The position numbers and the translations under genes were made by a program. Source: Bacteroidales bacterium (GTDB lineage: Bacteria > Bacteroidota > Bacteroidia > Bacteroidales > UBA932). From it: a stretch of DNA of 12,666 bases. Within the stretch, counting starts at the first letter, position 1. Every line of letters starts with the position of its first letter. Below are positions 589 to 12,666 of this stretch, in pieces. Under the pieces are notes generated by a model. The model was not told the origin of the DNA, searched no databases, and was given only the letters and a program-made list of their open reading frames with translations. The DNA is taken from NCBI GenBank assembly GCA_017555925.1, contig JAFZFL010000121.1:1-12666 (forward strand), read 5' to 3'.

Positions 589-1740
589 TTATGCAATAAA
601 TCCTTTCTTTACAAGCAACTCTGCAATTTGTACTGCATTCGTTGCAGCACCTTTTCTGAGGTTGTCTGCCACACACCAAAGATTCAATCCGTTTTCAAGA
701 CTTGGATCTCTTCTGATTCTTCCTACAAATACCTCGTCTCTCTCTTCTGAGTAGAGCGGCATAGGATATGGTAGCTGCTCCAATGCGGCAAGCTCCATAG
801 CTTTTGCCCCTTTGTCTATAGTACCTTTATTGGCAAGTTTTGCAGTTCTGCATTGCTCTTTAACATTGCTGTTGCCAATTGCTGCATTCTGCTCATCGCC
901 TGAAGGTGCAACACTGTCAAGAACAGCAACACCAGGGGTGTTTCTCAACACCTCTACAATCTCCTTGTCATCAAATGGTTTTTCAAACTCAAGGTTAATG
1001 GACTCAGCGTGTCCTCCCAAAACAGGAATCCTCACAGCTGTAGGTGAAACTCTAATGCTCTCATCGCGCATGATCTTGTGAGTCTCGTTAACCATTTTCA
1101 TCTCCTCTTTGGTATATCCGTTCTCAAGGAATTTGTCAATGTGAGGCAACATGTTCAAATCAATCTGGTAAGGATATGCAGATTTGTACTCTCCGCCAAT
1201 TATATTCTCCTCAATGCCTTTCCATCTCTTCCTCTCCTCAACCAACTGGTCGACAGCCTTCTGTCCTGTTCCTGTAATACATTGGTATGTAGATACAACT
1301 ATTCTCTTTATCTTATATTTCTTATGCAAATCTGCTATTGCAACAAGCATCTGTATAGTAGAACAGTTAGGATTTGCAATAATCATATCATCCTTGCCAA
1401 TAACATCGCCGTTAATCTCTGGAATAACAAGTCTCTTGTCGGGATCCATTCTCCAGCATGCAGAGTTGTCAACCACCCGGCAACCAACCTTTGCAAACTC
1501 TGGGGCATATATCTTTGAGGCATCACTTCCTGCAGAAAAAATTGCAAGTACAGGTCTCATTTCAATTGCCTCTTCCGGAGTTACAACTTCATACTCTTTT
1601 CCTTTGAAAGTCACCTTTTTACCCTTAGATCTTGCCGATGCTACAGGTATAAGTTCCGTTACTGGAAAATCTCTCTCTTCAAGGACTTTTAACATTTTGG
1701 AGCCTACCAGTCCTGTTGCTCCCACTACTGCTATTTTCAT
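589..1740 (-). CDS. asd: Aspartate-semialdehyde dehydrogenase with an unusual internal insertion
   Basis: The product is predicted to reduce aspartyl phosphate to aspartate semialdehyde with NADPH in the cytoplasm, the step between aspartokinase and homoserine dehydrogenase. The 383-residue protein begins with the dinucleotide-binding loop GATGLVG (residues 7-13), carries the catalytic Cys126 in NPNCSTIQ and the catalytic His244 in GGHAES, and ends with the conserved GLNLWCVADNLRKGAATNAVQIAE. The usual length is about 330-340. The excess lies at roughly residues 277-322, where an Ala/Gly/Lys-rich segment separates VAVLD from the conserved PYPMPLY; the frame is intact on both sides, so this is an in-frame insertion and not a frameshift. 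It is the last gene of the operon, 43 bases after the thrA stop, and is followed by a strong terminator. The assignment is firm; the effect of the insertion is unknown. Confidence 0.95.
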   Translation of the reverse strand: MKIAVVGATGLVGSKMLKVLEERDFPVTELIPVASARSKGKKVTFKGKEYEVVTPEEAIEMRPVLAIFSAGSDASKIYAPEFAKVGCRVVDNSACWRMDPDKRLVIPEINGDVIGKDDMIIANPNCSTIQMLVAIADLHKKYKIKRIVVSTYQCITGTGQKAVDQLVEERKRWKGIEENIIGGEYKSAYPYQIDLNMLPHIDKFLENGYTKEEMKMVNETHKIMRDESIRVSPTAVRIPVLGGHAESINLEFEKPFDDKEIVEVLRNTPGVAVLDSVAPSGDEQNAAIGNSNVKEQCRTAKLANKGTIDKGAKAMELAALEQLPYPMPLYSEERDEVFVGRIRRDPSLENGLNLWCVADNLRKGAATNAVQIAELLVKKGFIA

Positions 1741-1783: not shown

Positions 1784-4279
1784 CTATTTTAAAATATCAT
1801 TCAAAAGACCGCTTGCTGTCTGACGTGCACCCGCACCAGCGCCTTTGATAACCACTCCGTTAGGGTAATACTCTGTAGTAATGAGCATTGCATTGTCGCT
1901 ACCCTCCAATGAGTAGAACGGATGGCTCGAATCAACCTCAATAAGACCAACCCTGTATACAGGTTTCTCGCCCTCCTTGCTCTTGTCAAGTGTTGCAGCA
2001 AAACGGAGCTTCCTTCCCTGAGCGGCTGCATTGTTGTACATAGCTTTCAGATTCTCCTCTTCTGCCTCAAGGCCGGCATAGAACTCCTGCTCATCAGCAG
2101 CAAAGTTTATGCCTTTAGGTTGAAGAAGGCTTTGCGGAACAAATCCGTTGAAATCGATGTCAGAGCCCTCAATCTGCTCACCGGCCTCACGTGCGGATAT
2201 TATGAATTTTCTCAATACATCTGTGCCCGAAAGGTCAAGTCTTGGATCAGGTTCTGTATATCCAAGCTCTTTAGCCTCTTTTACAAGGGTGGCAAACGAT
2301 TTTTGTGTGTTGTAGCAGCTGAACAGATAGTTCAAAGTACCGCTCACAATACCCTCAATCTTAAGAATGCGGTCGCCGCTGTTAATAATCTGTCTTATCA
2401 TTGCCAATACAGGTTGGGCTGCGCATACAGTTGTCTCATAACGGTAGTTCACACCCTCTGCAAGTGCATTGTTGAATAGCTCCTTGTATGAGTCATAACT
2501 CAATGAGTTGGCAATCTTGTTGCAGGCTACAACAGAGAATTTGTTTCTGAAGAAATCAACATAAGTTCCGGCAATATCCTTGCTTGCTGTACAATCAACA
2601 AAAATTGAGTTGCTCAACTTGAGTTTGCATATCTCATTTATATAGTTGTTGCCCTCTGCTCCATCGGCAGGCTGTACTGTAAAGCCTCCCGACAGCTGCT
2701 CAATCATCTCCTCCTCTGAACCGAGAGCAATTCCTGTTCTGTTGAGGATGAATCTCTTGCTGTTGCATAGGCCGCATACAACCAAATCTTTACCCAATGT
2801 CTTCAACAGGAACTCTTTTTTCTGGCGTATGATCTCCACCAAAGCCTTTGAAACTGTTCCGTAACCTGCAATGAACAGATTTATGCGGTGTGCATTACTG
2901 CTGAAGAACTCCTCATGGATAGCCCTGATTGCATCATTAACATCCTCTGTCTGCACAACTGCAGATACATTCTTCTCAGATGAACCCTGAGCAATTGCGC
3001 GTATGTTAATACCCTCTCTGCCAAGTGCGTCAAACATCTTTCCACTTGCACCCGACTGGTTCTTCATATCATCACCAACAAGTGAAATTATTGAAAATCC
3101 CTTCTCTACACGCAACGGATCAACCTTGCCTAAAGAAATTTCATAGGCAAAGAGTTCATCTGTGGCTCTTTTTGCCTTGTCGGCATCGGCTTCGTCAATG
3201 GCTATACACATGGTGTGTACAGAAGATGCCTGGGTAATGAGAATAATGTTTACATTATTTTTGGTTAGGGTGTCAAAGAGTCTGCTCGAATAGCCCGGTA
3301 TACCAACCATACCGCTGCCCTCCATAGAGAGAAGCGCTATCTTGTTCGAACTTGAGATACCCTTTATTTTGCTGTGACCCTCAGGCGGATTGCGCTCAAT
3401 AAGTGTTCCTGGGTCAGATGGCTCAAAGGTGTTTTTTACATATATAGGAATGCCTTGTTTTACAACCGGCTGTATTGTTGGCGGATACACAACTTTAGCA
3501 CCAAAGTGTGAGAGCTCAAGAGCCTCTTTATATGAGATGTTTCTTATTGGTAGAGCCTGTGGCACTATACGCGGGTCGGCTGTCATCATTCCGCAAACAT
3601 CTGTCCAGATCTCAAGTATGCGGGCCTGTACACCAACAGCTATTATTGAGGCTGTGTAGTCAGAACCTCCGCGGCCCAAAGTGGTGGTACGTCCCTTCAA
3701 ATCCATTGCAATGAATCCTGGCATAATGTAGAGTTTGTGGGAAGAACTTTCAAAGAACTCCTTGATATTCTTTCCTGTAAGATCAGAAATTACAGCATTT
3801 TTGCCTGCAACCTCCTCTGTCCTTATCAGGTCTCTGGAATCTTTCCACAAGTGGCTTATGTTCAATGATTTCAATTTTGCGCTGATAATTTTGGTAGAAA
3901 GTAGCTCTCCAAAACTTACAATATGGTCAAGACTGAAGCTGCTCAACTCCTTCAAAAGATATACACCTTTGCATATCTCCCTCAATTCATTGAACAGAGT
4001 GGCGCACTCGGCTTTGATTGCGCTTGAATCATCATTGATAATAAGCTCGTCAATAAGACCGATATGTTTTTGTTCAAGTTTGTCAATGATTTCGGTGTAA
4101 GTGTTGTCCTGGGCCAGGGCAGCCTTTCCTATGGCTATCAACTGGTCTGTGCATCCGCTTATTGCAGATGAAACAACAACTGTCTTGTCTTTAGTCAAAG
4201 CCTCTCTCACAATGGCAATGACTTTGTTGATGTTCTGGGCGTTGGCTACTGAGCTTCCGCCAAATTTCATTACTTGCAT
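1784..4279 (-). CDS. thrA: Bifunctional aspartokinase / homoserine dehydrogenase
   Basis: This fused enzyme catalyses the first step (aspartate to aspartyl phosphate) and third step (aspartate semialdehyde to homoserine) of the aspartate pathway. The 831-residue protein starts with MQVMKFGGSS, the ATP-binding opening of aspartokinases, and has GRGGSDYTA at 202-210. Two ACT regulatory regions follow at about 310-380 and 395-460, then the homoserine dehydrogenase with a divergent nucleotide loop AGYGTVS (471-477) and the substrate motif GYTEPDPRLDLSG (673-685). Family length is about 810-830. I chose the start at 4279 because upstream in-frame ATG codons would run into metX and add residues with no family resemblance; the gap to the metX stop is then 13 bases. 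The motif usually reading ETTVGAGLP is ETTVCAAQP here (615-623). Because it sits in a methionine operon without thrB or thrC, it may be the methionine-branch isoenzyme, comparable in role to E. coli MetL; that is inference. Confidence 0.93.
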   Translation of the reverse strand: MQVMKFGGSSVANAQNINKVIAIVREALTKDKTVVVSSAISGCTDQLIAIGKAALAQDNTYTEIIDKLEQKHIGLIDELIINDDSSAIKAECATLFNELREICKGVYLLKELSSFSLDHIVSFGELLSTKIISAKLKSLNISHLWKDSRDLIRTEEVAGKNAVISDLTGKNIKEFFESSSHKLYIMPGFIAMDLKGRTTTLGRGGSDYTASIIAVGVQARILEIWTDVCGMMTADPRIVPQALPIRNISYKEALELSHFGAKVVYPPTIQPVVKQGIPIYVKNTFEPSDPGTLIERNPPEGHSKIKGISSSNKIALLSMEGSGMVGIPGYSSRLFDTLTKNNVNIILITQASSVHTMCIAIDEADADKAKRATDELFAYEISLGKVDPLRVEKGFSIISLVGDDMKNQSGASGKMFDALGREGINIRAIAQGSSEKNVSAVVQTEDVNDAIRAIHEEFFSSNAHRINLFIAGYGTVSKALVEIIRQKKEFLLKTLGKDLVVCGLCNSKRFILNRTGIALGSEEEMIEQLSGGFTVQPADGAEGNNYINEICKLKLSNSIFVDCTASKDIAGTYVDFFRNKFSVVACNKIANSLSYDSYKELFNNALAEGVNYRYETTVCAAQPVLAMIRQIINSGDRILKIEGIVSGTLNYLFSCYNTQKSFATLVKEAKELGYTEPDPRLDLSGTDVLRKFIISAREAGEQIEGSDIDFNGFVPQSLLQPKGINFAADEQEFYAGLEAEEENLKAMYNNAAAQGRKLRFAATLDKSKEGEKPVYRVGLIEVDSSHPFYSLEGSDNAMLITTEYYPNGVVIKGAGAGARQTASGLLNDILK

Positions 4280-4292
4280 AATAGTGGTACCG

Positions 4293-5336
4293 TTATAAAA
4301 TTTCTTTAAAAATCTCTGATATCTGTTCCCATTCCAACAGAAAACCGTCGTGTCCAAAAAGAGAGGTGATCTCTCTGTATTCGGCTCCGGTAATGTGTTG
4401 TGCCATAAATTTCTGTTCAGATGTAGGGAAAAGGTTGTCGCTGTCAATTCCAATACAAAATGTGCGGGATGTAATCTGGTTGAGAGCATTCACAACGCCC
4501 CCGCGGTTGCATCCTATATTATGGCTGTCGGTCAAATCAAGCATGCTCAAATATGAATAGGCATCAAATCTGTCAACAAGTTTCTTTCCCTGGTAGCGCT
4601 GGTATGATGCGGCTCTGTATGCCCATAAGGTATTGTCGTCGCTTTCAGATTGTGTGGAGTTGTAACCTTTGTAGCTCCTGTATGAGATAAGGGCCAATGA
4701 ACGGGCTGCCGCCAATCCCTTTTTGCCTCCCTCTGCAGTAACTCTTCCATCAGTAATTGTGTACTCTTGTGCTTCAAATGTGGAGTCGGCATAGAGGGCC
4801 ATCCTTTGCGATTCGTTGAATGCTGTGCCCCAAGGTGTAACTCTTGCATTGCTGGCAAGCATCACAAGGTTCTTTATAAGACTCTTGTTCATCAGACTCC
4901 ACTCAATAGCCTGAAAGCCTCCTACAGAGCCTCCAACCAACATCTCTATAGATTCAATTCCAAGTTCCTGACGCAATATTTCATGACACTTTACAATATC
5001 GCGTACGGTACTCTTTGGAAAGGAGAGCATATATGGTTTGCCGGTATTGGGGTCTATAGAGAGAGGTGATGTTGTTCCATAGCATGATCCCAGTATATTG
5101 GCACAGACAATTGTGTATTTGCGCGGATCCAAAAACTTGCCCTCGCCCACAAGGGTGTCCCACCACTCACAAGGATTGGAGTTGGCCGTAAGGGCGTGGG
5201 TTATCCATACAACTCTCTTGCTGCTCTCCTCCTTGCCATACTCCCTTGATATGTGGTAACATATCTCCAGTGATGGCAGTGTGGCACCGCTCTCAAGCGT
5301 AAATTCCCTGTTATATTTGAATATGCGTTTCTCCAT
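4293..5336 (-). CDS. metX: Homoserine O-acetyltransferase
   Basis: The predicted reaction moves an acetyl group from acetyl-CoA to homoserine, committing it to methionine synthesis. The 347-residue protein is an alpha/beta hydrolase of the MetX family: HALTANS near residue 47, the nucleophile elbow GGSVGG with Ser137, the acid Asp300 in IDSDNLFP, and His329 in GHDGFL, forming the usual Ser-Asp-His triad. CANILGSCYGTTSP (78-91) is also a family block. The length is normal. The start at 5336 (MEKRIFKYNREFTLESG) fits the family beginning and lies 11 bases after the metY stop, so the two are probably translated from one message. Some MetX-like proteins use succinyl-CoA instead, and the residue that decides this was not determined here. 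Confidence 0.95.
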   Translation of the reverse strand: MEKRIFKYNREFTLESGATLPSLEICYHISREYGKEESSKRVVWITHALTANSNPCEWWDTLVGEGKFLDPRKYTIVCANILGSCYGTTSPLSIDPNTGKPYMLSFPKSTVRDIVKCHEILRQELGIESIEMLVGGSVGGFQAIEWSLMNKSLIKNLVMLASNARVTPWGTAFNESQRMALYADSTFEAQEYTITDGRVTAEGGKKGLAAARSLALISYRSYKGYNSTQSESDDNTLWAYRAASYQRYQGKKLVDRFDAYSYLSMLDLTDSHNIGCNRGGVVNALNQITSRTFCIGIDSDNLFPTSEQKFMAQHITGAEYREITSLFGHDGFLLEWEQISEIFKEIL

Positions 5337-5347
5337 AGTGAATTCTG

Positions 5348-6625
5348 TTACAAAACCTCCATTGCCTGCTCAAAATCACCTATTATATCATTTATATTTT
5401 CAATTCCAATGCAAAGACGCAAAGTGCCCGGCTTTATTCCAACATTCAGAAGCTCCTCATCTGTAAGCTGGGCATGTGTTGTAGTTGCAGGATGGGCCAC
5501 AAGTGATTTGTTGTCTCCCAAATTTGCAAGAAGGGTAAATATCTTCAATTGGTCTACAAATGCTGCAGTATCCTGTCGGGAAGCCTTAAGGTCAACTGTA
5601 ATAATTCCACCAAAGCCGTTCCTCAAATATTTTTTTGCATTTGCGTGGGTAGGATGACTCTCAAGACCCGGATAATTAACCTTCTCAACTTTAGGATGTT
5701 TTTGGAGCCATTGTGCCAATGCAAGAGCATTGTCGCAAACGCGTTGTGCGCGAAGAGAGAGGGTCTCCACTCCGGTAAGAAGCAGAAATGCATTGAATGG
5801 GCTAAGGCAACATCCGTAGTCACGCAGCATCTCTGAACGTGCTCTTACTGCAAAGGCTTTTGAACCAAAAAACTCACTGAAACCAAGGCCTTTGTATGCT
5901 GCAGCAGGCTGTGTGAACTGAGGAAAACGGCCACATGACCAGTCAAATTTTCCTGCATCAGCTATAATTCCTGCTATTGAATTGCCATGTCCTCCAATCC
6001 ATTTGGTTGCAGAGTGTGTGACAATGTCTGCACCCCAATCTGCAGGGGCACAAAGATAACCGCCGCATCCTACTGTATTGTCAACTATCAACGGAAGATT
6101 GTGTTTTTTGCATACGGCACTCAACAGATCAAAGTCGGGAACGCTCAAATCAGAATTTGCAATTGTCTCCACATATACACCTTTTGTGCGTTCATCAATT
6201 AGCGCCTCAATCTCTTCCGCATTGTTGCATTTGCAGAATCTTGTTGTAATGCCCAATCGTGGAAGTGTCACTTTGAACTGGTTATATGTACCGCCATAAA
6301 GGGAGAGGGAACTTATAATATTGTCTCCTGCCTCACACAAGTTGACAATTGTCAGGAATTGGGCGCTCATGCCCGAAGATACTGCAACAGCATCCTGACA
6401 ATTCTCAAGAGCTGCAATTCTCTTTTCAAAAGTCTCTACTGTCGGGTTGTTTATTCTTGAGTAAATATTCCCCGGCTCTTCAAGTGCAAATAATTTTCTG
6501 CCGTGCTCAACGCTCTTGAATGCGTAGGCCGCTGTCTGGTATATTGGAGTGGCGCATGCCCCTGTTGTGGGATCGGGAGTATGACCGGCATGAACCTGCA
6601 GTGTCTCAAATCTATATTGTGCCAT
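5348..6625 (-). CDS. metY: O-acetylhomoserine sulfhydrylase (O-acetylhomoserine aminocarboxypropyltransferase)
   Basis: A pyridoxal-phosphate enzyme that joins O-acetylhomoserine and sulfide to make homocysteine directly, bypassing cystathionine. The 425-residue protein shows the Cys/Met-metabolism PLP family pattern: [10 protein letters not shown] at the N-terminus, [13 protein letters not shown] (55-67), SSGMSA (83-88), VDNTVG (181-186) and the PLP lysine Lys208 in [11 protein letters not shown]. The length matches the MetY group and exceeds that of cystathionine gamma-synthases (about 380-400). I chose ATG 6625 since the family begins just there; an in-frame ATG at 6691 would add 22 unrelated residues that overlap a hairpin in the leader. 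It is the first gene of the operon, preceded by a roughly 345-base leader with a Met-rich small open frame, so expression is probably controlled by attenuation. Confidence 0.94.
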
Positions 6626-6654
6626 AATCTCTATCTGATTATTAAACTCTTCCC

Positions 6655-6683
6655 GACAGATGGCTGATGGTTTTGCCTCTGTC
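6655..6683 (-). promoter_or_regulatory. Hairpin just upstream of the metY start
   Basis: On the - strand GACAGAGGC (6683-6675) pairs with GCC, one unpaired A, then TCTGTC (6664-6655), leaving a 10-base loop. It ends 29 bases before the metY ATG and is followed by GGGAAGAG with no T run, so it is not a terminator. It may affect translation or message stability, or serve as a 5' processing boundary. The stem is clear; its function is not. Confidence 0.4.
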
Positions 6684-6769
6684 TGAAACATTCTGTTGCA
6701 ATTATAAAATTAAATGAGTTCTATACGTAGAAAGGAGTGTCCGTTATCCCTGCGAAGAGCCTCCTGGAG

Positions 6770-6795
6770 AAAAACAAGTGCATCTTAGCGATGCA
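6770..6795 (-). terminator. Putative attenuator hairpin at the end of the Met-rich leader frame
   Basis: TGCATC (6795-6790), loop GCTAA, GATGCA (6784-6779), then CTTG and TTTTT (6774-6770), read on the - strand. The loop contains the TAA stop codon of the Met-rich leader frame and the fifth leader Met codon in its body (Met29, 6796-6794) overlaps the 5' arm. The 5' arm can instead pair with ATGCA at 6817-6813 (5 bp), or take part in a GCGA/TCGC hairpin (6800-6797 with 6791-6788), so alternative folds exist. Six pairs is weak for a terminator. A ribosome paused at Met27 or Met29 would cover the 5' arm and prevent folding. A further weak pairing, AGGAG 6765-6761 with CTCCT 6737-6733, lies downstream. 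Confidence 0.5.
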
Positions 6796-6880
6796 TTCGC
6801 ATAGATGAAGACTGCATTGAACGCATTATACCCATTGTCTGGTATAAACAAATAGTACCGATATGAATTACTATGTTCAT
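6785..6880 (-). CDS. Methionine-rich leader peptide of the metY-metX-thrA-asd operon (putative)
   Basis: A 31-codon open frame, ATG 6880 to TAA 6785, in the metY leader. It has six Met codons, at positions 1, 16, 19, 22, 27 and 29; the second half reads TMGIMRSMQSSSMRMHR. Ile (5) and Thr (2) are also present, so amino acids derived from the same pathway make up 13 of 31 residues. The start is preceded by GTTAAA, an A-rich context typical of Bacteroidetes initiation. Leader peptides rich in the end product, followed by alternative RNA hairpins, are the classic arrangement for attenuation of amino-acid operons. Here slow decoding at Met codons would let transcription continue into metY. Coding and function are inferred from composition, position and the overlapping hairpin; it is too short for a homology judgement. 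Confidence 0.62.
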   Translation of the reverse strand: MNIVIHIGTICLYQTMGIMRSMQSSSMRMHR

Positions 6881-6886
6881 TTTAAC

Positions 6887-6958
6887 TTACAATTTGAAAG
6901 CAATAATGCGTGTTTCTATAAACCATTTAAAGCTTGTGCTGCATATGATGCTTTGCAT
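6887..6958 (-). CDS. Possible second small leader open frame upstream of the Met-rich one
   Basis: A 23-codon open frame, ATG 6958 to TAA 6887, ends 6 bases before the Met-rich frame begins. It contains five Ile and two Thr codons, including two Ile pairs (SIIC and RIIAF), but only the initiating Met. Its start would lie only about 10-15 bases from the predicted transcription start. It could be a chance frame, or a leader that positions ribosomes for the next one by translational coupling. Confidence is low. Confidence 0.25.
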   Translation of the reverse strand: MQSIICSTSFKWFIETRIIAFKL

Positions 6959-6973
6959 AAGCGTTTTGCAGCA
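6937..6973 (-). repeat. Short inverted repeat at the predicted metY transcription start
   Basis: TGCTGCA (6973-6967) and TGCAGCA (6943-6937), read on the - strand, are exact inverted repeats separated by 23 bases. The upstream arm lies right at the expected transcription start, so it is better placed as a DNA operator than as an RNA stem. Seven-base arms can arise by chance. Confidence 0.25.
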
Positions 6974-6974
6974 A

Positions 6975-7005
6975 CAAAATTAGGTAATAATTTTTAATTA
7001 ACAAA
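6975..7005 (-). promoter_or_regulatory. Bacteroidales-type promoter of the met operon
   Basis: On the - strand TTTG at 7005-7002 is followed after 19 bases by TAATTTTG at 6982-6975, an exact match to the Bacteroidales consensus (TTTG at about -33, TAnnTTTG at about -7). Transcription would begin near 6970, giving metY a leader of about 345 bases. The -33 element lies in the T-rich tail of the preceding hydrogenase terminator, so the two signals overlap. A degenerate TATAATTG near 6705 is a much weaker alternative. Confidence 0.7.
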
Positions 7006-7038
7006 ATAAAATGAGGATGACTTGATAGCCATCCCCAT
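7001..7038 (-). terminator. Intrinsic terminator of the hydrogenase gene
   Basis: ATGGGGATGGC (7038-7028) pairs over 11 positions, two of them G-U, with GTCATCCTCAT (7021-7011), with a 6-base loop TATCAA, followed by TTTATTTTG. It lies 27 bases after the hydrogenase stop codon and separates this gene from the met operon. Confidence 0.85.
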
Positions 7039-7065
7039 TGCATTTGTAATGCAGTATGTAATCTG

Positions 7066-8508
7066 TTATTCCATTTTCTTCAACTCTGCTGCAATCTGTC
7101 TTACAGACGAAGCTTTGTCGGTATAAATACATGGTCCTGTAACGCAACCTGTTTCACAAGCCATCACCTCAATGAAAGGTGCAGGGGATTTGCCGGTTTT
7201 TGCGTATAGTTTCAACAGACCTATATTCTTCTTGTCGAGGTTGGCAACCTGAAGGGCCTGAAGGTTTGCCTGGGCAAGATATGCTTTAACAGCTGTAGTA
7301 ACACCACCTGCCTGTGCAAAACCATGAGCCTCTTTTACAGATTTGAATGACATAGCATACGGCTCTGTTGTATTTATGTCAATATCCATACCGTCAAGAA
7401 CAGAACCCATCTCCTCAAAAGTCATGGTATAATCTACAAACTCAGGATACTTTCTTGCCTCTTTTCTCTTTGCAATACATGGTCCGATGAAAACAGTAAG
7501 TGCTTCAGGATCCTGTTTTTTTACAATCTCTCCTGTATAGTACATTGGAGATTTGGTTGTAGAGATATATTTCTTAATTTCAGGAATATGCTTTTCAGAT
7601 AGTTCAATATAAGACGGACAGCAGCTTGTTGTCATGAAAGGCTCTCCCTCTTCCATTCTCTCAATGAACTCCTCAGACTCGATGCGTGTAGTCTCCATTG
7701 CTCCCTGGGCCACCTCAATCACATCTGAAAAACCTACCTGTTTCAATGCTCCGTATATATTCTCTATAGAGGTGTTGAATTGTGCAAGGATTGCAGGAGC
7801 TACCATTGCAACCACCTTCTTGCCCTCTTTTATCTTCTGAAGAATATCAAAAACTTGCGAAATTTCAAAGATTGCTCCAAACGGACAAGCATTCAAGCAT
7901 TTTCCACAATAAATACATTTGCTCTCATCAATATGCTCAATTCCATACTCATCTTTGCTGATAGCCTTTACAGGACAAGCATCCTCACAAGGAACAGGAA
8001 TGTACAGGATTGCATGGTATGGACAACTCTTGTAACATTTGCCGCAACTTATACAGACATCATGGTCAATCTCGGCCTGGCCGCGTTTGTTGAAGTGGAT
8101 AGCATCTTTTGGACAGTTCATGTAACAGCTTCTGGCAACACAACCCTTACAAAGGTTACTTACCTCATAGTTTACCTGAACGCACGAAGAACAAGCCTCA
8201 TCAATAACGCAAAGGATATTCTCTTTCAGATTTTTTTTGCGTTCAACAGCCTGTTGGGCATAGTATGAAAGAGGTGCAAGTTCATCTTTTTCATCTGTCA
8301 TGTCGAAACCAAGCAATGGTAGCGATTTGTACTTCCATACTGCACGCTCCTTATGGACGCAGCAGCGTCCCATAACTCTTGATTTCTTTGGACTCAACTC
8401 TATCGGTAGGCGGTCTATGCTGTCTATAAGAGAATCTTCTCTCCAAAGTTTTACCAAATTCGCCAACAATTTGTGGCGTACAATCATAACATTATTAGTA
8501 AATGCCAT
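7066..8508 (-). CDS. Monomeric [FeFe] hydrogenase, group B type
   Basis: The product is predicted to be a cytoplasmic iron-only hydrogenase that interconverts protons and H2 using low-potential electrons, probably from ferredoxin. The 480-residue protein has a family-specific N-terminus (MAFTNNVMIVRH, then RCCVHKERAV). Cys-rich iron-sulfur motifs follow: C120/C123/C128/C132, C152/C155/C158/C162, C174/C178 and C198/C201/C204/C208. The H-cluster signatures are present: TSCCPSY (294-300), GPCIAK (342-347) and EVMACETGCVTG (447-458). The variant L1 (Tyr in place of Trp after TSCCPS) and L2 with GPC in place of MPC point to group B rather than the well-studied group A enzymes. No HydE, HydF or HydG maturase is in the window. 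A TATCTTTG -7 element lies 31 bases upstream and a terminator follows, so it may be monocistronic. Whether it evolves, takes up or senses H2 cannot be told. Confidence 0.93.
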   Translation of the reverse strand: MAFTNNVMIVRHKLLANLVKLWREDSLIDSIDRLPIELSPKKSRVMGRCCVHKERAVWKYKSLPLLGFDMTDEKDELAPLSYYAQQAVERKKNLKENILCVIDEACSSCVQVNYEVSNLCKGCVARSCYMNCPKDAIHFNKRGQAEIDHDVCISCGKCYKSCPYHAILYIPVPCEDACPVKAISKDEYGIEHIDESKCIYCGKCLNACPFGAIFEISQVFDILQKIKEGKKVVAMVAPAILAQFNTSIENIYGALKQVGFSDVIEVAQGAMETTRIESEEFIERMEEGEPFMTTSCCPSYIELSEKHIPEIKKYISTTKSPMYYTGEIVKKQDPEALTVFIGPCIAKRKEARKYPEFVDYTMTFEEMGSVLDGMDIDINTTEPYAMSFKSVKEAHGFAQAGGVTTAVKAYLAQANLQALQVANLDKKNIGLLKLYAKTGKSPAPFIEVMACETGCVTGPCIYTDKASSVRQIAAELKKME

Positions 8509-8538
8509 AGTATAAGTTTATATATTAAAAAACGGCTG

Positions 8539-8546
8539 CAAAGATA
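8539..8546 (-). promoter_or_regulatory. -7 element of the hydrogenase promoter
   Basis: TATCTTTG on the - strand matches TAnnTTTG exactly and is followed by GCAG, as is common at Bacteroidales start sites. It lies in the 47-base gap between the AraC gene and the hydrogenase. No clear TTTG is seen at the -33 spacing, which would fall inside the end of the AraC gene, so this promoter may need an activator. Confidence 0.5.
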
Positions 8547-8555
8547 CAAAAAAAA

Positions 8556-9419
8556 CTAACTGTTCCTATACTCTATAGGAGTCATTTTCACATATTCCAG
8601 GAAATAACGGTTAAAAGCGGTTGGTGTAAAGCCTAAAGATTTGGCAATCTTGTTTATACGGGCGTCGCTGCTCTTGAGTTGGGCTTTGGCGTCCATGATT
8701 ATAAGTTGCCTGATAATATCCTGGGCTGTCTTGCCTGTGGCTTTTTTGATGGTGGCGCAAAAATGGGAGAGCGTAAGGCCAATCTCATTGGCATAAAAAG
8801 TGGCTTTATGTTCTTGCGGATAGTTTTCAAAAGCAAGCCGTATAAACTCCCTGAGCACTTCGAGTTCCCTTGGTCCCTTCTCTGTAATTTGAATGTCGGA
8901 ATGTTTGTATACGGTTGAAAGCGAATTGTAGAACATCTCAACAACACTTATTACAATATTGTTGTTGAGCAGTTTTATTGGCGCTTCTTCGGCTTTCATT
9001 ATTAACGATATGGAGTCTTTGTAGAACTCCGCGATCTCTTTTGGAAGATGCAGTACGGGACTGTTTATCACCTCTGCAAGGTTGCTGGTAATGTTTCTCC
9101 AGAAGTTTATTGTATTTATGAAACTTGAACTGAAACCTATAAAAGCAATTCGGGTATTCTCATAAATCTCATGTATCTGTATGAAACTGCCTGGAATTAT
9201 TGTAATGAAGTCATTCTCCTTTACAGTATACTCGCTCAAATTGAGGGTAACCTTTGCTCCGCCGCTCAGACATATTGCAAAAATGCCGGCCTTGATTTTA
9301 CATGGGAACATCTTGTAAATTTCAAGGATAGAGCCATTTATGTTGTCATCCATGATATAGTCTATAGGTATATCATATTTTGGGAAAGGCGCTTTGTAGA
9401 TGGAGTTGAAAAGTGACAT
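8556..9419 (-). CDS. AraC-family transcriptional regulator
   Basis: A 287-residue protein with an N-terminal region of beta-strand character (about residues 25-100, cupin-like sensing domain) and a C-terminal AraC-type double helix-turn-helix at about 185-287. The second helix-turn-helix ends with the family signature FNRYFLEYVKMTPIEYR (269-285). Such proteins bind DNA in response to a small ligand; the ligand is not evident. The gene diverges from the lipoprotein operon (152 bases apart) and lies 47 bases upstream of the hydrogenase on the same strand, so either could be its target. Its own -7 element, TATTTTTG, is at 9447-9440. The start at 9419 is supported by that promoter position. Confidence 0.88.
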   Translation of the reverse strand: MSLFNSIYKAPFPKYDIPIDYIMDDNINGSILEIYKMFPCKIKAGIFAICLSGGAKVTLNLSEYTVKENDFITIIPGSFIQIHEIYENTRIAFIGFSSSFINTINFWRNITSNLAEVINSPVLHLPKEIAEFYKDSISLIMKAEEAPIKLLNNNIVISVVEMFYNSLSTVYKHSDIQITEKGPRELEVLREFIRLAFENYPQEHKATFYANEIGLTLSHFCATIKKATGKTAQDIIRQLIIMDAKAQLKSSDARINKIAKSLGFTPTAFNRYFLEYVKMTPIEYRNS

Positions 9420-9439
9420 GGTGTTATTGTTGTTTTTTG

Positions 9440-9447
9440 CAAAAATA
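9440..9447 (-). promoter_or_regulatory. -7 element of the AraC-family gene
   Basis: TATTTTTG on the - strand matches TAnnTTTG, 20 bases before the ATG at 9419. No good TTTG is seen at the expected upstream spacing. Confidence 0.45.
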
Positions 9448-9503
9448 GGCTATTTGCTCAAAAAAATCTACTAAAAACGATAAATTTGTATATAAAATTA
9501 TTG

Positions 9504-9571: not shown

Positions 9572-11878
9572 ATGAAAATGTTTAAGGGCGTACTATTGCA
9601 AATTTTTGCCATCTTGCTTCTTTGTTCATGTGGAAAAGAGGGGTATGATTTTGGTAATGAGGGCAATGCACAAACGCCAGCTGCAGATCAGGGTGAGGTT
9701 GAATTTTCACTCTCTACAGATTATACCATTCGCACAAGGGCAACAGGCGAGGATCTCAATCTTAATCCCGACAATTTCTCTTTTGCAATTCTCAATGCTT
9801 CAAATTATGTAGTGGAGCAGTGGACACAATTCTCCCAGGTAAAGGGTCAGAGTATAAAATTGAACAGCGGCTCGTATGTGGCCATGGCTTGGTATGGTGA
9901 CTCTACAGCCACAGGATTTGATGCCATATACTTTGTGGGAAAGAGCAATTTTGAAGTGGAAAAATTGCAAACGACAAAAAATGTCTCCATAACCTGCAAG
10001 CAAGGAAATGCCAAGGTTGCAGTTAATTGGGGTGACAACATAAAGAAGTACAGCAATTTCCAGGCATGGGTAAAGAGAGAGGGTGGTGTGGACAGCCTCA
10101 ATTTTACAAAAGATGAGACAAGGGCAGGATATGTGCCTGCCGGCAATATCAGATTGTCGGTTTCAACTACAGATGCTTCGGGAGTTGAGAGAATTTATGA
10201 GCATGAAACTCCTATTTCTGTAGCGGCTCAGGATTATCTGACACTTCATATCGACAGCAAAAGCGGTGGCGGAAATGGTGGTGGTACACCTGATACTCCT
10301 GGCGGATCTGATGAGGGATATATTGTCATTACCTATAATATAGATACTACAACTTCGGATAAGCCGCAACAAATTACCATTCCTGCATTTTTGGTTTCAA
10401 AACCTGCACCATCTCTGTCGGGAATTGGATTTGATGATAATAATTGCGCCGAGTTCTGGGAGGGCGACATTTCAGATCCAATTAAGGTTATGATCAATGC
10501 CCAGGCCTTCATCTCTTCATGTAAGGTGGCAATAAAGAGTCCGTCTGCAAATGTTACACTTCCAGATACAATTGATATTGTGAGTGATGCAACCAATGCC
10601 GCAAAATTGAAGGATGTGTTGGGTATTGTTTGGGATGATGAGTTCCAGAACAAGAGATATGCAACAATTGACCTTACAAACTTTGCAAGGAGTATAAGGG
10701 TTGTAGATAATGGAACTTCTTCTGAGAGTACAACAATTTCTGTGTTGGTAACAGATATGAGAGGCAAGAAGAGTGAGGAGGTTACATATACATTGACTGC
10801 CAAACGTCCTGTAATGTCATTGAATGCGGTTCCTGCTTATGATATGTGGGCAAGAAAGGCTTATATAGAGCTGGTTACAGATGTTGAGGACAAGAGCCTG
10901 TTCAAATTTGAGTATCTTGTAAACAATTTGCCTTATGATGTGAAATATTCATTGGTAAGCACTTCGGGCAATGTGAGCAGATATGAAATTTCGGGTCTTG
11001 CACCAGGAACATCATATATCTTCAGGGCTAACTACAATAACGGATTGTACTATACAAATACTGTTGCAGTTACAACAGAGGCTGCCCAACAGCTTGTGAA
11101 CGGTGATATGGAGACATGGAGCAATGATTCGTGGAATACTTATGGCATGCAAAAGATATACTGCTACTATCCTGGAGCGTCGGCTTCAGACAAGGGCTGG
11201 AGTACAAGAAATACTCTTACAATGGATGGTGTAAGCGACGGAACTTCAACAGGAACATCAAATCAGGTTGTAGCTTACCGCTGGAACTCATGTACAATTC
11301 CTACAGGTGATGCAGTAAGCGGCAATGCTGCAGAGATAAGGACTATGGCACTCTCTACAAGGAGTGTTGCAGGAACAGAGGTTGGAAGCGGATTGTTCTG
11401 GAGTACAAAAGCTGTGGAGGCATTTATGCAGAATTACGGAAAAGTGTATGCCGGGTATCTTTACACAGGAGCAAAAGATGTGACAACCCAGAATTCTGTA
11501 CCTGATTCAAAGGGTATTGCCCATCAGTCAAGACCTTTGTCACTTACATTCAGCTATAAGTATGCTCCTTTCAATGGTGACAAATGTAAAATCTATGCGA
11601 AGGTATATGATTCAAATGGCTCCATTATAGCACAGACTGAGGAGTTTGTCTCAGGAGAGAGGAAGGATGCATATACCAAAGTTACATTTGATTTTGTTTA
11701 TTCGTCATATCAGTCAAAAGCAGCTTCTATAATGGTCTTCTTCCAGTCGGGAGTGAATGAGGGTGCCAATATGTCATATGTGCAATTTGTAGATGGAAGT
11801 TATGATGGCAACCCATGGTCGTTGGATACATTCGTGGGCAGTGTGCTTAAGATAGATAATGTGGAGTTGGACTATTAG
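9572..11878 (+). CDS. DUF4493-type surface lipoprotein with a C-terminal carbohydrate-metabolism-like (PCMD) region
   Basis: A 768-residue predicted lipoprotein. The signal peptide ends in the lipobox LLCSC with lipidated Cys20. Residues about 40-230 resemble DUF4493: a beta-strand start, then RTRAT, a GSYVAMAWYGD segment and VSITCKQGNAKVAVNW. A Gly-rich linker (231-247) separates this from a middle region containing fibronectin-III-like strands (YEISGLAPGTSYIFRANY). From Asn510 (NGDMETW) to the end lies a region resembling the putative carbohydrate metabolism domain (PCMD, PF13201), with many Trp and Tyr residues. It is therefore probably an outer-membrane-anchored surface protein. No catalytic residues can be pointed to and its function is unknown. 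It is the first gene of a + strand unit, 43 bases ahead of a related lipoprotein gene. Domain names rest on remembered family patterns and not on a search. Confidence 0.78.
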   Translation: MKMFKGVLLQIFAILLLCSCGKEGYDFGNEGNAQTPAADQGEVEFSLSTDYTIRTRATGEDLNLNPDNFSFAILNASNYVVEQWTQFSQVKGQSIKLNSGSYVAMAWYGDSTATGFDAIYFVGKSNFEVEKLQTTKNVSITCKQGNAKVAVNWGDNIKKYSNFQAWVKREGGVDSLNFTKDETRAGYVPAGNIRLSVSTTDASGVERIYEHETPISVAAQDYLTLHIDSKSGGGNGGGTPDTPGGSDEGYIVITYNIDTTTSDKPQQITIPAFLVSKPAPSLSGIGFDDNNCAEFWEGDISDPIKVMINAQAFISSCKVAIKSPSANVTLPDTIDIVSDATNAAKLKDVLGIVWDDEFQNKRYATIDLTNFARSIRVVDNGTSSESTTISVLVTDMRGKKSEEVTYTLTAKRPVMSLNAVPAYDMWARKAYIELVTDVEDKSLFKFEYLVNNLPYDVKYSLVSTSGNVSRYEISGLAPGTSYIFRANYNNGLYYTNTVAVTTEAAQQLVNGDMETWSNDSWNTYGMQKIYCYYPGASASDKGWSTRNTLTMDGVSDGTSTGTSNQVVAYRWNSCTIPTGDAVSGNAAEIRTMALSTRSVAGTEVGSGLFWSTKAVEAFMQNYGKVYAGYLYTGAKDVTTQNSVPDSKGIAHQSRPLSLTFSYKYAPFNGDKCKIYAKVYDSNGSIIAQTEEFVSGERKDAYTKVTFDFVYSSYQSKAASIMVFFQSGVNEGANMSYVQFVDGSYDGNPWSLDTFVGSVLKIDNVELDY

Positions 11879-11921
11879 TATACATGTATAAGTAACAGGT
11901 TAGAAAAAGAGAATACGATAT

Positions 11922-12666
11922 ATGAAAAGATTTTTGATTATTACAGCAGCTTTAGTGGCAACACTTTTCTGCAGTTGCCAAAAAGTTACATTGGGCGGAG
12001 GTGATGATATTGATCCTGTTTTGCCTGAAGGAAGTGGCGGTGTAAGCTTGAGCCTTGTTCAGGAGGGTGAGTTTACAAAGGCACAGGATGTTGTTGATGT
12101 TAAGGATTTTTATGTGAAGATTTACAACGGTGAGGAGTTGTATAAGAGTTATGCAAAATACTCTCAGGTGCCAAGTACCATTGAGATAGCGCCCGGAACA
12201 TACAGAATAGAGGCAGGCACACAGGGTCAGGAAAAGGCTGCATTCAGCCAGCCAATCTTTTATGGAGAGACTACAGTCTCGGTTACTCCAGGAACAATTG
12301 AACCTGTAAGTCTTGTATGTGTGCTTACAAATGTAAAAGTTACAATAAAGTATACAGATGAGTTCAGAACAGCTGTAAATGACAACTTTGAGGTTGCTGT
12401 TTCTAATGGAATAGATGCGAATCTTGTCTTCTTGAAATCTCATATAGATAACAATATCAGCGGTTATTTTACAGTCGCCCCTTCATTGACAATTACTCTT
12501 CAGGCTTATAGAAGGGATAATGGCGATGAGATTACCCATTCAATTATAGTTGATGATGTAAAGGCAAGGGACCATATTGTTGTGACATATGATGTTGAAG
12601 AGCTTGAGAATACTGGAAATGTACAACTTGGAGAGGGTTCAATAACCGTTGATTACGAGATTAATC
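11922..12666 (+). CDS. Second DUF4493-type lipoprotein, 5' part
   Basis: ATG at 11922 opens a frame that runs 248 codons to the window edge with no stop. The N-terminus MKRFLIITAALVATLFCSCQ is a lipoprotein signal with lipobox FCSC and Cys19, followed by an acidic Gly-rich stretch (GGGDDIDP) of the kind linked to surface export in Bacteroidetes. The body repeats the DUF4493 layout of the preceding gene: VSLSLVQEGEF, DFYVKIYNGEELYKSY, a TIEIAPGTYRIEAGTQG segment, then SLVCVLTNVKVTIKYTD. Spacing of 43 bases and no terminator between the two suggest one operon, perhaps arisen by duplication. The C-terminal domain is outside the window. Confidence 0.8.
   Translation, partial: MKRFLIITAALVATLFCSCQKVTLGGGDDIDPVLPEGSGGVSLSLVQEGEFTKAQDVVDVKDFYVKIYNGEELYKSYAKYSQVPSTIEIAPGTYRIEAGTQGQEKAAFSQPIFYGETTVSVTPGTIEPVSLVCVLTNVKVTIKYTDEFRTAVNDNFEVAVSNGIDANLVFLKSHIDNNISGYFTVAPSLTITLQAYRRDNGDEITHSIIVDDVKARDHIVVTYDVEELENTGNVQLGEGSITVDYEIN

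Follow-up and report, generated by a model that had tools for sequence, protein, structure and literature searches.

A predicted methionine-sensing leader reading frame upstream of metY and metX in Bacteroidales

The trp, his and thr attenuators of enterobacteria consist of a short leader ORF with many codons for the pathway product and a hairpin, placed before the biosynthetic operon. Two further leader peptides are of interest here: TnaC, which senses tryptophan in the ribosome tunnel, and the mgtL-mgtA leader of Salmonella, which senses Mg2+ and proline and is Rho-dependent. Ribosomal sensing of methionine is an awkward case, because Met also starts every protein. A leaderless Met leader peptide, metL, has been proposed before metNIQ in Streptomyces lividans TK24, with hairpins present and no clear Rho-independent terminator in the published description as far as it is accessible (PMC8079986). 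A conserved RNA motif of Corynebacterium, ilvB-II, has been shown to be an amino-acid uORF (PMC10272879), and the fthC uORF candidate of Streptococcus often has its stop codon in a hairpin, its authors speculating on Met sensing via initiator tRNA (PMC11109978). In the order considered here, the Bacteroides thetaiotaomicron transcriptome contains attenuator-like sORFs within long 5' UTRs, e.g. BT_4401 (PMC7366714), and SAM-II has been noted in the Bacteroides group (PMC1273637). The earlier note that drew attention to the present locus knew of no described peptide-based methionine attenuator from Bacteroidales. Our search of open-licence PMC titles and abstracts (partly the best 20 of 67 and the best 20 of 70 matches) likewise returned no description of the element, and the accessible part of PMC6429828 contains nothing on a Bacteroidales Met leader; a Met leader as such had, with metL, already been proposed (PMC8079986).

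The leader locus and its distribution

The window, by which we mean the whole stretch of 12,666 nt that was analyzed, carries on its minus strand a leader ORF of 31 codons, MNIVIHIGTICLYQTMGIMRSMQSSSMRMHR (6880-6788, TAA at 6787-6785), supported by the sequence, the frame test and the Met enrichment given below, with Met at codons 1, 16, 19, 22, 27 and 29. On the same strand, a promoter of the Bacteroidota type can be read from the sequence (TTTTG at 7006-7002, a 19-nt spacer and TAATTTTG at 6982-6975), TAnnTTTG being the Bacteroidota promoter consensus, and the transcript would start near 6970. Both the promoter, which the earlier note had also claimed, and the ORF are kept in the closest relative, Bacteroidales bacterium RGIG1816 (L001), whose MetY is a 92% relative of the window's; in the alignment of the two loci the frame, the late Met codons and the hairpin are all retained. 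A TAnnTTTG box lies 4-94 nt 5' of the leader start in 81/82 leaders, the exception (L063) being cut off at a contig end, and 7-18 nt 5' of it in the 9 leaders verified later; in many loci the start codon is very near the promoter. Upstream, a terminator-like hairpin of 13 pairs (7039-7010, minus strand) lies 3' of an [FeFe] hydrogenase gene, and its T-run doubles as the upstream element of the leader promoter, i.e. terminator and promoter overlap.

Downstream of the leader, all on the minus strand, lie metY, the first gene of the operon, which codes for O-acetylhomoserine sulfhydrylase (5348..6625; NCBIfam TIGR01326, 597 bits, above the cut-off), a gene for a metX-like homoserine O-acetyltransferase (4293..5336; best NCBIfam match TIGR01392, 312 bits, below the cut-off of 500), a gene for a bifunctional aspartate kinase/homoserine dehydrogenase (1784..4285; NF006959, 874 bits, above the cut-off; the longer frame spans 1784-4489 and the true start lies somewhere within) and asd, the aspartate-semialdehyde dehydrogenase gene (589..1740; TIGR01296, 414 bits, above the cut-off). 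As behind known attenuators, the operon makes the amino acid or its precursors. The start of metY is probably 6625 rather than 6691, because L001 keeps the reading from MAQYRF. Neither the window nor the leader region has any Rfam match at the gathering score; the SAM-I aptamer (RF00162) is absent from the window and present in the related tandem loci described below. A near-identity search of phage records with window positions 5300-9500 gave no match. On the plus strand, 9572-12665 holds by eye two adjacent lipoprotein-like genes, and the 768-aa lipoprotein-like gene of this region has no NCBIfam match at E 1e-5.

The strict motif (ATGCGAATGCATCGCTAAGATGC, at most 3 mismatches) was found in 52 of the 299 genomes of the window's bacterial family, and its reversed control gave no match. 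It occurs in 3/393 genomes of the order, of which two are family members and the third, G354, lies outside the family and has two weak matches with no Met gene behind them (L075 and L077, removed from the 55-locus set before counting). A gapped pattern that allows other loop lengths matched 88/299 family genomes and 36/393 genomes of the order. Four of the latter are family members with a leader, and 30 other order loci with a match have no MetX or MetY homologue downstream; the order count leaves six matches unread, two of them the sole match of their genome (G475, G443). Ten family matches of the gapped pattern were set aside: L213, L214, L216 and L217 have no Met gene downstream, and the other six are in G109, G101, G038, G099, G206 and G052, all of which except G101 have a verified leader elsewhere. 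Altogether, leaders were verified in 91/299 family genomes (the strict motif accounting for 52, with a further 39), every one of them 5' of metY or metX; the Met-rich 31-codon leader with a hairpin before metY, as the earlier note had described it, is thus both confirmed in the window and conserved. The counts below refer to a set of 82 loci that includes the window and a degenerate leader (L124) and excludes nine later loci, which served for verification only; L063 is left out wherever n is 81 or 52. The first gene, by alignment, is MetY in 49 and MetX in 24, while the remaining 9 slices were too short to align and had been cut as the upstream side of metX. All counts ignore kinship; at 85% identity, 53 loci form 48 groups.

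MetX homologues at E 1e-20 are present in 196/299 family genomes. A leader is present in 20 of 40 sampled metX-bearing genomes that lack the strict motif, one has a degenerate leader (L124) and 19 show none, which indicates that the leader is dispensable in some lineages. Neither the 19 leader-less genomes nor L124 yielded an Rfam match at the gathering score. In one lineage (L124, L127, L114) the leader has decayed to a degenerate (SQVRMRL) or motif-less form with promoter and start kept; in seven leader-less relatives (L125, L132, L141, L143, L149, L150, L155) the metX start lies, by eye, close behind a TAnnTTTG box, and metX is apparently near-leaderless.

The comparison of relatives supports the reading frame. 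In 52/52 loci with a promoter, an in-frame ATG or GTG lies 8 or more codons before the motif with no stop in between, versus 5/52 and 0/52 for the two other frames, and the first ATG 3' of the promoter is in the leader frame in 48/52, as predicted for a short ORF between promoter and operon. In 81 leaders, Met makes up 199/810 (24.6%) in the last 9 codons before CGA, 25/840 (3.0%) in the rest of the leader and 2/729 in each other frame, an enrichment of end-product codons as in attenuators. The frame test and the Met enrichment together exclude chance, and they bear out the expectation of the earlier note that Met codons would be kept while other codons vary. Less favorable to Met sensing, 10/81 leaders have two internal Met codons and L050 has a single one. 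Nothing points to constraint on the entire peptide, since the 23 close pairs exhibit 25 synonymous vs 74 nonsynonymous codon changes (plain counts). Leader length ranges from 14 to 49 codons. Codon 7 is Ile in 69/81 leaders (6862-6860 in the window), written ATA in 55, and stays at this fixed distance from the start despite the varying length.

The core of the leader is CGA-ATG-CAT-CGN, with CGA in 79/82 and ATG in 82/82 leaders; for the second Arg, 50 leaders use CGC and 21 use CGT, and the codon before CGA is Lys in 10/82. In the window, codon counts show that the dicodon CGA-ATG (6794..6799, minus strand) joins a rare Arg codon to Met codon 29, which is invariant. CGA, which is decoded by inosine wobble, accounts for 3/133 Arg codons in the window's genes and for 56/1308 in the metY or metX genes that come first at leader loci (71 genes).

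Hairpin P1 and its possible read-out

Hairpin P1 (6779..6795, minus strand), recognized from the sequence and its relatives, pairs TGCATC (6795-6790) with GATGCA (6784-6779) across the loop GCTAA. In the window its 5' arm begins inside Met codon 29 and its loop holds the stop codon; most loci have the stop within this loop, and in the rest the frame runs on for one to several further codons (e.g. RMHRQDA, RMHRKMHS). The stem GCATC/GATGC is kept across relatives, with a loop of 4-9 nt. Compensatory changes were found in L045 (GCAAC/GTTGC) and L152 (GCATCA/TGATGC), and the inner C-G pair is compensated in L138, L139, L147 and L151; such cases are scarce within the family, as the greater part of the stem is invariant. 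The median dG of P1 is -8.4 kcal/mol over 82 loci, with a pairing value above 0.5 in 81/82. The 3' arm (6784-6780) contains an ATG one base past the stop (TAAGATG; TTG in L045), a possible reinitiation site.

In the window, P1 is followed by the U-rich tract CTTGTTTTT (6770..6778, minus strand), read from the sequence, and a pattern scan lists the hairpin as terminator-like. The read-out in the window is probably premature transcription termination, because P1 is followed by this tract. Across the 82 loci, T makes up 49% at +5 to +15 after P1, and a simple scan finds a terminator-like site in 21, the window included; 17 of these sites are P1 itself, and 1.6 are expected from shuffles that keep single-base composition only. 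Transcription termination is therefore likely in some lineages, as judged from these sites. Of the conservation anticipated for hairpin and T-run, that of the hairpin was borne out, with few compensatory changes, and that of the U-run was not (17/82).

Alternative upstream partners of the 5' arm, which the earlier note had seen in the window, are not conserved: their mean z is -0.02 over 74 loci, the window alone reaching -1.6. Four tests for alternative partners of P1, upstream and downstream, gave mean z from -0.02 to 0.28 in the same 74 loci, with 3 to 6 loci per test below -1.5. For a downstream partner of the 5' arm the window itself has z -2.6 (by eye TTCGCA, 6756-6751), and only L021 and L152 also fall below -1.5. 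Masking of the ribosome-covered stretch changes downstream folding by a median of 0.05, with more than 0.1 in 16/82 loci, among them the window, and a minor effect in 66/82. The mutually exclusive antiterminator of an attenuator thus has no conserved counterpart here, and P1 is the sole element on which ribosome stalling would have a clear effect. Because there is no conserved alternative partner and masking is mostly minor, we call the element attenuator-like rather than a textbook attenuator. A GCGA/TCGC stem overlapping P1 was dropped on inspection, its one-sided changes being uncompensated.

A possible second hairpin, P2 (GGAG..CTCC by eye), occupies 6734..6765 (minus strand), with CGCAGGGATAACGGA present in close relatives too (L020, L021). 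Two other groups of loci show P2 changing in sequence without loss of pairing: a GGGAU-type loop is closed by the inner stem in one, where the outer pairs align poorly; in the other, the group with a 4-nt loop, P2 is followed by a third hairpin, P3, and there is no U-run. These downstream structures bear on the strongest alternative, namely that the same leader controls translation of metY or metX, the leader ribosome or P1/P2 setting access to the start without any termination. We regard this as a possibility at well under even odds. It would account for the 61/82 loci in which the simple scan finds no terminator-like site, for the P2/P3 of the 4-nt-loop group, which vary with pairing kept and lack a U-run, and for loci with only ~70 nt between P1 and metY; the median distance of 113 nt from P1 to the gene start and the excess of terminator-like sites over shuffles (21/82 vs 1.6, single-base shuffles) speak against it.

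Late methionine codons behind SAM-I riboswitches

That a SAM riboswitch would be the usual expectation in Bacteroidales, as the earlier note put it, applies to the order and not to this family: SAM-I was found in 19/80 order genomes and 1/99 family genomes, under stricter filters by which weak matches are lost. We read 27 SAM-I loci of the order, only one of them from the window's family. This family case (L219 in G044) has the aptamer, then MTSYILHSFINTIHVGRMRA with CGA-ATG and a GCGC/GCGC hairpin whose loop holds the stop, then metY. A content-blind rule, taking the first ATG within 55 nt of the aptamer that opens 12-60 codons, yielded 23 frames in the 27 loci, of which 20 have Met in the last 8 codons and 19 start 8-15 nt after the aptamer. 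Met accounts for 33/184 of the last 8 codons vs 7/487 elsewhere (Fisher p 9e-14), and for 2/184 in each of the other frames. Downstream of the chosen frames lie, among others, metY, metX, metH and an aspartate kinase gene. Thus, judging from codon content, the aptamer and a predicted Met leader often stand in tandem. A Met-anchored hairpin in these frames is moderately supported (p<0.05 in 5/23, none in 7/23, combined p 0.007).

The rule finds no ORF in four loci (L220, L225, L226, L233) and an ORF without late Met in three of the 23 (L256, L235, L221); in L256 it picks the wrong overlapping ORF, which was kept in the counts, and the doubtful L237 was counted as positive. L220 and L221 precede MetY-like genes of ~35% identity, and by eye a T-run soon after the aptamer resembles an ordinary terminator, while in L225 and L226 a metH-like frame starts, by eye, immediately after the aptamer. 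No acceptable Met leader was seen behind the aptamer in L233, L235 and L237. The gene after the L237 aptamer has as its sole NCBIfam match at E 1e-30 the methanogenesis marker 16 metalloprotein, below the cut-off.

The tandem loci also help to judge a nascent-peptide arrest in which the C-terminal RMHR would sense SAM or Met in the ribosome tunnel. RMHR is indeed nearly invariant in the family and mostly adjoins the stop, yet the remaining peptide drifts, the distance to the stop varies, CAT and GCATC are accounted for by P1 pairing, and the post-SAM-I frames end differently (RMRA, FMPVGL, MFMR, PMGMH). Moreover, the constraint is on the codon CGA (79/82 leaders) and not on Arg; in the post-SAM-I frames the Arg directly before Met is CGA in 7/9, compared with 1/38 of the other Arg codons, and a codon-level reason for CGA is favored because the hairpins of these frames differ in sequence. 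Instead of the conserved nascent chain of TnaC-type leaders, there is drift outside the last residues and conservation of CGA at the codon level, and we consider arrest unlikely. Less likely still is that the motif acts as a DNA operator or a riboswitch-like RNA and that the reading frame is incidental, as might be suspected from the structured P2/P3 and from the inverted repeat CGAATGCATC..GATGC, whose nucleotide sequence is very highly conserved; this is opposed by the frame and Met tests, by the lack of any Rfam match at the gathering score and by other families, which change stem and loop sequence yet keep the late Met codons. A small functional protein, for which the conserved start and Ile at codon 7 (69/81) could be cited, can practically be dismissed in view of lengths of 14-49 codons and the drift of the sequence.

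Proposed mechanism and comparison with known systems

The reading we favor, at a rough probability of 0.78, is that the element is a ribosome-sensed methionine leader, i.e. an attenuator-type uORF. When charged Met-tRNA is scarce, the ribosome would lose speed on the Met codons, above all on the AUG that follows the slow CGA; its body would cover the 5' arm of P1 and keep P1 from forming, and expression of metY, metX, the aspartate kinase/homoserine dehydrogenase gene and asd would continue. With ample Met, the ribosome would reach the nearby stop and leave, P1 would form and expression would fall. In relatives without a U-rich tail, the read-out may instead rely on pausing, on Rho or on a second hairpin. 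Ribosomal sensing of Met-tRNA, as the earlier note had proposed, therefore stands as the best explanation, and a terminator of hairpin and U-run as the general rule does not, given terminator-like sites in 21/82 loci with P1 itself in 17. Where a SAM-I aptamer precedes the leader in other Bacteroidales, in most cases by 8-15 nt, it would bring in SAM as an additional signal, probably by limiting leader translation.

A broader joint reading, to whose three parts taken together we give even odds, is as follows. Bacteroidales would possess a two-signal Met switch, in which a SAM-I aptamer without room for a terminator gates translation of the leader and the ribosome reads Met-tRNA at CGA-AUG at the foot of the hairpin. 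In the window's family, the aptamer seems to have disappeared from almost every member, leaving the leader by itself, often translated from near the mRNA 5' end. Finally, CGA would be kept so that decoding of the next AUG is rate-limiting and one Met codon can suffice; the CGA-AUG pair is thus a concrete claim on how a single codon becomes a sensor. If SAM-I riboswitches of Bacteroidales are often trailed by a second, translation-based sensor, then treating them as stand-alone switches may be a misreading.

Like the trp, his and thr attenuators, the Bacteroidales element combines a leader ORF rich in codons for the pathway product with an adjoining hairpin before a biosynthetic operon. It differs in that it would sense Met, its hairpin has a 5' arm that starts in the sensing codon and often holds the stop in the loop, no conserved antiterminator was found, the terminator-like tail is limited to 17/82 loci, and the start codon is very close to the promoter in many loci. 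The SAM-I riboswitch (RF00162) serves the same genes in the same order of bacteria, but has no match in the window and occurs in 1/99 family genomes. The mgtL-mgtA leader similarly unites an RNA sensor and a leader peptide within one 5' UTR and is otherwise unrelated, given its Mg2+/Pro signals and Rho dependence. The ilvB-II uORF concerns branched-chain amino acids in one genus (PMC10272879), with both antiterminator and terminator described (PMC11109978). The fthC candidate belongs to a folate gene and has a third hairpin resembling an intrinsic terminator, and Met codons are not named as a feature in the accessible part of that report (PMC11109978). The one published Met leader peptide that our search turned up, the proposed metL, is from Actinobacteria, precedes a Met importer rather than biosynthesis genes and comes from one genome, as far as the accessible text goes, with the SAM riboswitch named there lying before other genes (PMC8079986); against this single-genome proposal stands a predicted sensor conserved in 91 genomes of one family. 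What is new here would thus be a variant of the Met leader peptide, notable for its tandem arrangement with SAM-I.
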